Shown here piece after piece: positions 56,297-58,113 of a stretch of DNA of 64,000 bases. The translations under genes and the position numbers were made by a program. The DNA is taken from assembly GCF_024643285.1 (NCBI RefSeq), contig NZ_JAMSLW010000003.1, positions 472,787-536,786 of the forward strand, given 5' to 3'. The notes under the pieces are model-generated. The model ran no database searches. It saw only the letters and a list, made by a program, of their open reading frames with translations, and had not been told where the DNA came from. This DNA comes from Parapedobacter lycopersici (GTDB lineage: Bacteria > Bacteroidota > Bacteroidia > Sphingobacteriales > Sphingobacteriaceae). The first letter of the stretch is position 1, and each line of letters starts with the position of its first letter.

Positions 56297-56989
56297 ATGA
56301 ACCGAATCGACCGTTTATTCGGCATCCTGACACTCCTGCAGTCAAAGAAATATTTGACGGGAGAGCGGATTGCCGAGCGGTTCGGCATCAGTATCCGTAC
56401 GGTGTACCGCGATATCCGGGCACTCAACGAGCAGGGAATACCTGTCGGATTTGAGCCGAATAAGGGTTATTTTGTAGTAGACGGCTTTTTTCTGCGGCCG
56501 GTATCCTTTAGCCTGGAAGAGGCCAATGCCCTCCTCCTGATGGAGAACCTGGTGACAGGCTTTGCCGATAAATCCATTCAGAAACATTATTCAAGTGCCC
56601 TCAGCAAGGTGAAAGCCGTTATGCGCGATTCGCAGAAGGAAAAGCTGGAATACCTGACCATCAGTACCGGGTTCCAATTTCCCCAGCGGTTGCTCAATGA
56701 GGCCAATGAACACCTGGCCACGCTGCAGGAAGCCGTAACCGCCCGTACCATACTGGACGTCCGTTACTGCAAGGCAGATGGCTCGGAAAGCAACCGCCGG
56801 GTTGAACCGGTCGGACTTATTTTCTATGCCTTTAGCTGGCACCTGATTGGCTGGTGCCACCTCCGCGAAGATTACCGGGATTTTAAGGTGTCGCGCATGG
56901 TGCATGTGCAGAACAGCGGGATGCCCTTTACCAAAACCACCCATCCGCCGATTGCTGATTTTATGAACCAGCTGCCGGTGGATTATTGA
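56297..56989 (+). CDS. YafY-like transcriptional regulator (HTH + WYL domain)
   Basis: 230 residues. The N-terminal winged helix reads RLFGILTLLQSKKYLTGERIAERFGISIRTVYRDIRALNEQGIPV; the WYL domain lies at about 135-210 (ILDVRYCKADGSESNRRVEPVGLIFYAFSWHLIGWCHLREDYRDFKVSRM). It is shorter than many relatives and lacks the C-terminal extension seen in phage-defence WYL proteins. It is 23 bp behind the DUF2723 gene, so probably co-transcribed; targets unknown. Confidence 0.92.
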   Translation: MNRIDRLFGILTLLQSKKYLTGERIAERFGISIRTVYRDIRALNEQGIPVGFEPNKGYFVVDGFFLRPVSFSLEEANALLLMENLVTGFADKSIQKHYSSALSKVKAVMRDSQKEKLEYLTISTGFQFPQRLLNEANEHLATLQEAVTARTILDVRYCKADGSESNRRVEPVGLIFYAFSWHLIGWCHLREDYRDFKVSRMVHVQNSGMPFTKTTHPPIADFMNQLPVDY

Positions 56990-57137
56990 TGTTAAAAAAT
57001 GTTAAAACCTCATTAACAGCCAAATAAAACGCCATTATTGGTTACTTTAGCGTAGCAATTAGGATCGCCTACCAAGGCCGTTGCGGTGGAGTTTGCCGCA
57101 CGGATAGGGCGGGGGGCGGCGCCGGGCCCGTTAACCC

Positions 57138-57384
57138 TTCGGGAAAGGATGCAGGCCGTTCCGGGTCTTCCCCGGGACTGCTTCGGGGTTCCTTCGACCC
57201 TTATTCGGTATTCCTTCGGGGGTTGTTCGGGGCTCGCCGAAGGATGGTCGAACAGCGCCCGAAGCCGGGTCGAAGCCGGGTCGAAGCCAACTCGAAGCGG
57301 ACTCGAACAGCAGTCGAAGCGGTCCCGAAGCCGGGTCGAACAAGGGTCGAAGGAACCCCGAAGCGGTGTCGAAGCGGACTCGAA
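57138..57384. repeat. 11-bp-phased TTCG/CGAA tandem array with orientation switch
   Basis: In the 572-bp gap between the WYL regulator and pyrR. TTCG recurs at 57182, 57193, 57204, 57215 and 57226 (exactly 11 apart; an outlier in the same phase at 57138), then the complement CGAA recurs 14 times from 57238 to 57381, again exactly 11 apart. Spacer bases vary but often read GCNGNNT. A 23-bp segment of the left part (57180-57202) is the perfect reverse complement of 57342-57364. Because 11 is not a multiple of 3 and the unit has no stop, open frames run through on both strands and are not genes. Confidence 0.85.
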
Positions 57385-57494
57385 CACATGTCGGACAATA
57401 GGTGATGAAAGGCTTTTGGCCGGGAATGATGCCGGACCGGAAGCCGGGATCGAAGCAGGATGCCAATAAAGTTTAAAAAATAAAAAAAATATAG

Positions 57495-57502
57495 TAGGTT
57501 TG
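57495..57502 (+). promoter_or_regulatory. -7 box of the pyrR-pyrB promoter
   Basis: TAGGTTTG, perfect TAnnTTTG, 59 bases before the pyrR ATG. The leader is too short for an obvious PyrR-type attenuator. Confidence 0.55.
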
Positions 57503-57561: not shown

Positions 57562-58113
57562 ATGAAACAATCCATTTTATTAGACGGCCCGAAATTCCAG
57601 ATCACCATTCAACGGCTTTGCCATCAATTGATTGAAAATCATGGTGATTTTTCGGATACGGTAATTATTGGCATCCAGCCGCGGGGAATTTACCTGAGCC
57701 GCCGCATCGTGGAGGAGCTCCGCCAGGTGCCGGCATTGTCCGATGTGCCGTACGGAGAGCTGGATATCACGTTTTTCCGGGATGATTTCCGGCGGCCGGA
57801 CAGCGGACCGCTGGTACCCAACAGCACACACATGGATTTTATCGTGGAGGGGAAAAAGGTGATCCTGATGGATGATGTGCTGTGGACCGGCCGTACCATC
57901 CGGGCGGCTATGGATGCCCTGCAGGCCTTCGGCCGTCCGGCGAAGATTGAACTGCTGGTACTGGTTGACAGGCGCTTTTCGCGGCAATTGCCCATCGAAC
58001 CGGATTACATCGGTATACAGGTGGATTCCATCGATTCGCAGAAGGTCAGCGTAAGCTGGGCCGAAGTGGAAAAACGCGACCGGATCACACTGCTTACCGA
58101 TATTAATAATTGA
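57562..58113 (+). CDS. pyrR: PyrR bifunctional pyrimidine regulator/uracil phosphoribosyltransferase
   Basis: 183 residues of the PRT type I fold. The PRPP loop is KVILMDDVLWTGRTIRAAMDAL, preceded by the PyrR-typical IGIQPRGIYLSRRI and GELDITFFRDDFRR. In Bacillus it binds pyr leader RNA and also makes UMP from uracil; here no leader hairpin is visible, so only the enzymatic role is supported by sequence. pyrB follows after 36 bp. Confidence 0.94.
   Translation: MKQSILLDGPKFQITIQRLCHQLIENHGDFSDTVIIGIQPRGIYLSRRIVEELRQVPALSDVPYGELDITFFRDDFRRPDSGPLVPNSTHMDFIVEGKKVILMDDVLWTGRTIRAAMDALQAFGRPAKIELLVLVDRRFSRQLPIEPDYIGIQVDSIDSQKVSVSWAEVEKRDRITLLTDINN

Follow-up and report, generated by a model that had tools for sequence, protein, structure and literature searches.

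An 11-bp-phased CGAA array of Parapedobacter lycopersici, one of at least 22 dispersed V-shaped elements, as a possible track for a cooperative DNA-binding protein

What does a row of short words, set at exact 11-bp steps and reversing its direction part of the way along, do between two genes of a bacterial chromosome? The row in question lies in the window, by which we mean the whole 64-kb stretch of Parapedobacter lycopersici DNA (64,000 nucleotides) that was analysed. There, in a 254-bp intergenic stretch between a WYL regulator and pyrR, five TTCG words are followed by 14 CGAA words. Pattern searches show that this genome has at least 22 such elements, V-shaped and dispersed, and from comparisons among them and across the family we propose, with confidence somewhat short of even, that they are tracks for a cooperative DNA-binding protein that takes one word per 11 bp. 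The finding is larger than first described from the window; the mechanism is a reasoned guess.

Layout and gene setting

The locus has the following features, in window coordinates.

56297..56989, forward strand: upstream gene, HTH_11/WYL regulator (Pfam), ending 148 bp before the first in-phase TTCG
57138..57236, reverse strand: short (left) arm with nine slots of 11 bp, a perfect TTCG in six and degenerate letters at 57149, 57160 and 57171
57180..57202, forward strand: left half of a perfect 23-bp inverted repeat
57226..57241, no strand: switch, TTCG-N8-CGAA, of the short-centre type
57238..57391, forward strand: right (long) arm, 14 consecutive CGAA-N7 units, with a degenerate 15th slot at 57392
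57342..57364, reverse strand: right half of the perfect 23-bp inverted repeat
57492..57502, forward strand: promoter-like TAGTAGGTTTG, between array and pyrR
57562..58113, forward strand: downstream gene, phosphoribosyltransferase-domain protein, pyrR-like (Pfam)

The sequence-only reading had described five TTCG and 14 CGAA words at 11-bp steps, a one-base slip of phase at the switch and a 23-bp inverted repeat between the halves, and the exact positions agree on every point. Consecutive TTCG words start at 57182, 57193, 57204, 57215 and 57226. A further TTCG at 57138 is likewise in phase, 44 bp (4 x 11) before 57182, and the slots between the two are degenerate (ATGC, TCCG, CCCG). The CGAA words run from 57238 to 57381, the slot after them reads CGGA, and the step from 57226 to 57238 is 12 bp, which places the arms one base out of phase. 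Periodicity of this kind lies beyond shuffled controls: in 5,000 dinucleotide-preserving shuffles of the region 57100-57400 the longest run was 0 in 2, 1 in 4,737, 2 in 259 and 3 in 2, and no run above 1 occurs elsewhere in the 64-kb window. The period-11 score of the array is 0.37, unmatched by any other part of the window, and the best window score at nine other periods (7-10, 12-14, 20 and 21) is 0.13. The suggestion that all cores face one side of the helix requires a pitch of exactly 11.0 bp; with 10.5 bp per turn, the cores are rotated by ~17 degrees per unit. The long open frames on both strands, which had been put down to the array, are in keeping with the unit logo, in which T is rare at positions 5-8 and a pyrimidine almost always occupies position 11. 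A coding role for the array was rejected because the unit length is no multiple of three.

Does the array serve the genes on either side? The motif TAGTAGGTTTG before pyrR is promoter-like, and TAGTAG(G/T)TTTG precedes pyrR in all eight other genomes of the genus, none of which carries an array upstream of this gene. One of the eight (G001) keeps the same WYL-pyrR gene order, yet has no array. These comparisons therefore lend no support to a link between the array and WYL or pyrR.

Dispersed copies and their internal conservation

Pattern searches of the whole assembly (3,619,545 bases, or 3.62 Mb, in 22 contigs, 99% complete) revealed at least 22 array elements, spread over all six large contigs, so that the array is not unique; on contigs C17-C22 the count may miss arrays shorter than seven units, and one short run noticed on C20 stands outside it. 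All 22 are V-shaped, with a shorter TTCG arm, a centre and a longer CGAA arm. The centre GCAA-N4-TTGC is present in 18, and in the other four, including the window copy, the cores are instead separated by a short centre of just 8-9 bp (N8 in the window copy and L046, N9 in L037 and, by eye, N8 in L048, where the script gave 41). When the 22 loci were compared by BLAST, 192 of the 231 pairs matched within the element, at 66-92% identity (median 75%), and only the pair L042/L050 matched over more than 60 bp outside it. That pair is the sole one with common flanks (L042:3713-4263 and L050:3677-4221, ~550 bp, 84%).

Many copies, with flanks unrelated in all but one pair, are what a MITE would present. 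The main rival explanation, which we consider rather unlikely although it deserves serious weight, is accordingly the selfish short repeat that had been listed among the possible roles: a MITE- or REP-like element copied between genes by an enzyme acting in trans that recognises the cores. Two arms around a centre would suit such an element. The copies have, however, ragged ends and none of the usual marks of insertion that were looked for. Target-site duplications were not found, shared direct words averaging 5.1 between own and 5.3 between mismatched 45-bp flanks, nor were terminal inverted repeats (inverted word means of 5.2 and 5.3 in the same flanks). No mobilising gene is tied to the elements, and BLAST searches of plasmids and phages, with the low-complexity filter on, gave no match to the window copy. 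Remnants also seem few: the centre motif has 11 matches at 0-1 mismatch, all inside arrays, and seven at two mismatches, of which four lie in arrays and three outside, against one in the reversed control. Because centre matches fall mostly in arrays, there are few if any stripped elements. The dispersal with unrelated flanks thus stands from the selfish-repeat proposal, while the duplications and terminal repeats that would mark such an element were not found in the 45-bp flanks.

Is the array simply an ordinary, diverged tandem repeat, a minisatellite without function? Arrays of 7-bp and 21-bp period are likewise intergenic in this genus, which favours the idea, but the internal structure of the CGAA elements argues against it and makes it improbable. 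A logo built from 229 right-arm and 107 left-arm units reads CGAA followed by G/C, A/C, further positions, G/C and T/C, and the extended unit word is SYCGAASM. When 18 copies were aligned on their centres, peaks of information content recurred every 11 bp in both arms, like the teeth of a comb. The left arms provide a fair test, because right-arm runs alone suffice to find the copies; in these arms exact TTCG occupies 59 of 90 in-phase slots versus 6 of 666 off-phase positions. Over all pairs of the 18 left arms, spacers differ at 2,364 of 4,284 positions (55%) and cores at 727 of 3,060 (24%), the core figure being raised by copies whose left arm is shifted by one base. The 40 pairs with a spacer difference below 0.45 have means of 11.5% for cores and 36% for spacers. 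Cores are thus better kept than spacers. A point to the contrary is that in three of the four closest pairs, all involving L034, the values are nearly equal (cores 0.15, spacers 0.14-0.21). Within the 18 arrays, spacer identity is 0.44 at a unit distance of 1 and 0.37-0.45 at distances of 2-9; it shows no clear fall with distance, and the units are therefore not fresh tandem copies. The V form, which occurs in two word families (see below), is a further point against a minisatellite.

The inverted arms raise another alternative, that they pair into one long hairpin as a folded RNA or a cruciform. Folding energy lies below that of shuffles on both strands, with a mean z of -5.4 over the 22 copies for mononucleotide shuffles and of -3.8/-3.4 for shuffles in which the cores are kept. 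The window copy has its perfect 23-bp inverted repeat, and arms complement their own partner better than a swapped one (permutation p ~1e-4, in 20 of the 22 copies, L038 and L048 being left out). This excess resides in a minority of copies, however: among the 20 left arms, the own one comes first for six right arms and 14th or lower for seven. Moreover, when units are compared one by one at fixed registers, arms of one copy are about as complementary as arms of different copies, there is no strand preference, and the 1,001 bp around the window copy yield no Rfam match at E<=1. We give the hairpin little credence. A universal hairpin was rejected, as own-arm pairing is better only in some copies and at changing registers.

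The slimmest chance is left to intrinsic curvature, in which AA steps phased at the in vivo pitch would bend the DNA and pin supercoils. In bacterial genomes the usual period is 11 bp (PMC516772, PMC4132750), and plectonemes locate to curved DNA upstream of promoters (PMC6301789). Bend predictions, made with a wedge table, go up for the CGAA arrays when the pitch is set to 11.0 bp (mean z 2.1). For nine arrays of the second word family described below they reach 0.83 and 0.95 deg/bp, with z of 1.5 and 2.3 against a background not taken from their own genomes. At 10.5 bp per turn, however, the 22 CGAA arrays average 0.53 versus 0.55 deg/bp in the flanks (z 0.5); even at 11.0 only three of the 22 exceed the flanks' 95th percentile, and curvature leaves the strict core letters unexplained.

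The elements sit between neighbouring genes, many of them 50-240 bp ahead of a start codon. The neighbours are mixed and often of the housekeeping type, including rimP, glutamate dehydrogenase, an S1-domain protein, homoserine O-succinyltransferase, a class I tRNA synthetase (ileS by eye), leucyl-tRNA synthetase, Hsp70/dnaK and ribosomal protein L3. No orientation rule was seen among the 22 copies relative to neighbouring genes, and relative to local GC skew ten are plus, 11 minus and one zero. A replication- or segregation-linked site, another of the roles proposed from the window, is not borne out by copies on all six large contigs and this even split of orientations. Even spacing of the elements was considered and is not relied upon: none of the 16 gaps within contigs is shorter than 41.8 kb, a minimum that 0.15% of random placements reach, and their coefficient of variation is reached by 1.3%, but both figures are post hoc, the census is possibly incomplete and seven genomes of another genus show no clear sign of it.

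Relatives, changing words and shared sites

Across the family, a six-unit pattern occurs in 37 of 251 genomes, the present one included, and its reversed control in none. A five-unit pattern occurs in seven of 60 relatives, again counting the present genome, and its reversed control matches one other genome (G048) four times. At least 114 contig stretches were matched; at least 23 are members by eye, and the others are near-identical tandem repeats or use other words. V elements are present in Sphingobacterium, Daejeonella, Olivibacter and Breznakibacter, the last carrier, Breznakibacter xylanolyticus, belonging to another order, Marinilabiliales. Seven genomes of another genus, likely Sphingobacterium, which were picked for their matches, have 4-9 V centres each. 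As copies are found across the genome and in relatives, and the 11-bp step is kept, the concern that it might be a solitary, unconserved oddity falls away. A phage or plasmid origin was rejected, as the window copy has no BLAST match there and none of 28 viral contig stretches resembled this class.

In three Sphingobacterium species the 11-bp phase continues past the CGAA units while the word drifts block by block, for ~1 kb in S. paucimobilis. Lag-11 identity in these stretches is 0.49-0.59 versus 0.18-0.29 at lags 9, 10, 12 and 13; the block L089:100-353 is not periodic (lag-11 identity 0.27). Such drift along a single array would not be expected of one strict reader and counts against the proposed track. 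The drifting stretches are L176:3900-5100 (S. paucimobilis), L177:300-900 (Sphingobacterium sp. UT-1RO-CII-1) and L089:484-900 (S. nematocida), and the words met along them include GTACC, CATGTGT, CTAGTTCA, TTCG/CGAA and AAGTATT. In L176 the array lies upstream of an open frame that is SusC-like by eye; a 1,682-codon open frame fusing array and SusC-like gene was not accepted as a protein. Array flanks are common, in mosaic fashion, to one set of three Sphingobacterium species. That orthologous arrays can be one 11-bp unit longer or shorter than each other is another point against the track. CGAA arrays of P. defluvii and P. indicus (L060, L062, L064 and L065) precede near-identical leader regions, as would follow from a joint duplication of leader and array, and in L060 and L062 genes for TonB receptors (Plug domain) follow.

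Relatives within the genus also carry arrays with the same 11-bp step and another word, GTAA/GTAT, most of them V-shaped. Four-unit GTAA-N7 matches number 8, 19, 41, 7, 6 and 24 in genomes G001 to G006, and none in G007, G008 or the present genome; the reversed control gives none in 15 of 16 genomes and three in G071. By our own count the matches form 21 clusters in the genus, of which nine were fetched. When 12 GTA arrays were inspected, nine proved to have TAC words in a left arm at least three units long, and eight read TAC-N7-GTA across the switch; five permuted left words reach three units in 0, 0, 1, 0 and 0 of the 12 arrays. A spacer vocabulary common to the CGAA and GTA families was rejected, since the two have 20 six-letter words in common and column shuffles give 27.

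Three of the nine fetched GTA clusters occupy a gap, bounded by the same pair of genes, that in the present genome holds a CGAA element. The gap between YjbR and dnaK holds a GTAA array in G001 and a CGAA array here, and the gap between an Fe-S protein and ileS holds GTAA arrays in G002 and G005 and a CGAA array here. Two independent coincidences among eight would be expected with a frequency of ~0.6% if 22 of ~1,500 gaps are occupied, a number of gaps that we assume. A third location, before rpsA, has a GTAA/GTAT 11-bp array in G002 and G004 and a CGAA element here; the gene upstream of our element was not found within 1.5 kb in either relative, so that only the downstream gene is shared. The same-place argument is carried by dnaK and ileS. 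As the CGAA and GTAA arrays at dnaK run in opposite directions, the change there is no simple in-place swap of letters. In most relatives an array of 11-bp step was not seen before dnaK or rpsA; no clear period-11 signal was seen before rpsA in G001, G003, G005, G006 or G007, and in G008 the gene is at a contig edge. Array sites hence vary between species, elements coming and going, and this variation counts against the binding track and, together with two word families per genus, in favour of the selfish repeat. Before dnaK, three relatives (L238, L240 and L242) carry 7-bp repeats (CTAATGT-like) where the present genome has its CGAA array.

A putative reader and its known counterparts

What are the implications of strict words, free spacers and a switch of direction? 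Because the cores are strict and the spacers free, with a single core in every 11 bp and a change of direction, we infer cooperative binding, one core at a time, and from the change of word at constant step a reader whose specificity turns over. Protein molecules would line up side by side along both arms, one per CGAA core, reading the spacers weakly or not at all. The switch would be the meeting or starting point of two protein rows that point in opposite directions, and the longer arm would hold the longer row. The binding word may change between lineages. The placement between genes suggests a boundary or an anchor, and the elements may act in this manner between transcription units and not as regulators of one gene. 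Thus, of the phased protein-binding array that had been offered as one role, the array itself is real, recurrent and conserved in step, and the binding is the reading we rate highest, by reasoning from these patterns.

In a fuller and more doubtful version, we speculate that the V tracks of the Sphingobacteriaceae are boundaries of transcription units, on which a filament-forming reader, starting from the switch, takes one word per helical turn. The step, the V form and some of the sites would be kept as the word changes with the lineage (CGAA, GTAA/GTAT, drifting in Sphingobacterium), and the system would be a chromosomal counterpart of centromere repeats and readers that rapidly co-evolve. 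If the proposal is true, a nucleoid or insulator protein is loaded across a bacterial chromosome at phased sites that the sequence itself encodes, the specificity of its reader turns over between species while the architecture stays, and a testable handle is gained on how Bacteroidota separate transcription units and organise the nucleoid.

Among the top results of searches in open-access titles and abstracts for similar repeats, ParR and 11-bp periodicity, no description of such arrays was found. The centromere parC of plasmid R1 consists of two blocks of five repeats around a promoter, and the blocks are not inverted. It resembles the present arrays, which likewise have two blocks around a centre and hold several direct repeats at an 11-bp step. 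It differs from them as a single, plasmid-borne site beside parM/parR, the present elements having at least 22 copies and inverted arms. ParR binds the 11-bp-step direct repeats of R1 cooperatively (PMC9426499), and it serves here as a model for array binding. A pair of ParM-like ATPase and ParR was found neither among 44 neighbour frames inspected by eye, some of them spurious, nor among 20 neighbours searched with Pfam.

Two dispersed repeats of the Bacteroidota invite comparison as well. The BrickBuilt MITE of Porphyromonas gingivalis has 19 intergenic copies in one genome, built of tandem short units with predicted stem loops, and to this extent is alike; it differs in its 23-nt repeats without spacers, in a leader and a tail with IS5-like terminal repeats, and in a range of P. 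gingivalis and P. gulae as against a family-wide one (PMC4596501). The present arrays are unlike it in their 11-bp steps, variable spacers, direction switch and interchangeable words, and no terminal repeats were found in them. The TAACTGA heptamer repeats are likewise direct repeats of a short word between genes, sporadic across Bacteroidetes and in some cases ahead of housekeeping genes, but they consist of one fixed heptamer, and the portion of the report consulted presents no variable spacer or direction switch (PMC4679880).

Could the reader be encoded beside the arrays? An HTH_17-like gene adjoins an array in five Parapedobacter loci (L225, L235, L226, L227 and L228), assignments that rest on mutual similarity, and also in one Olivibacter (L054/L232) and one Sphingobacterium locus (L169). 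Pfam supports HTH_17 in L054 and L169, places it below the cut-off in L066 and gives none in L067 or in the frame taken for L058. The excisionase Xis of phage lambda forms a micronucleoprotein filament, its winged helices, of the excisionase-like kind, lying head to tail on DNA at three sites in one phage att region. The likeness lies in the HTH_17 genes that adjoin some arrays in relatives; the present genome is without such adjacency, its single HTH_17-like homolog lying ~11 kb from the nearest array. Furthermore, two HTH_17-like paralogs (L230 and L236), in two Parapedobacter genomes, adjoin arrays of 21-bp period. HTH_17 was therefore rejected as the binder, the case for it being one of location only. 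The 21-bp arrays, downstream of the two paralogs, use other words (CCCCGTAC; CCATGGC..CGTAG).

Genes for DUF6266 (Pfam in L054, L058, L063 and L066) and DUF5675 (Pfam in L058 and L067) follow, and the order HTH_17-like gene, array, DUF6266, DUF5675 recurs in L054, L058, L063, L066, L067 and L227, with support that varies between its parts. In the Parapedobacter loci a TTGGCA-rich, operator-like block was noted by eye before the promoter of the DUF6266 gene.
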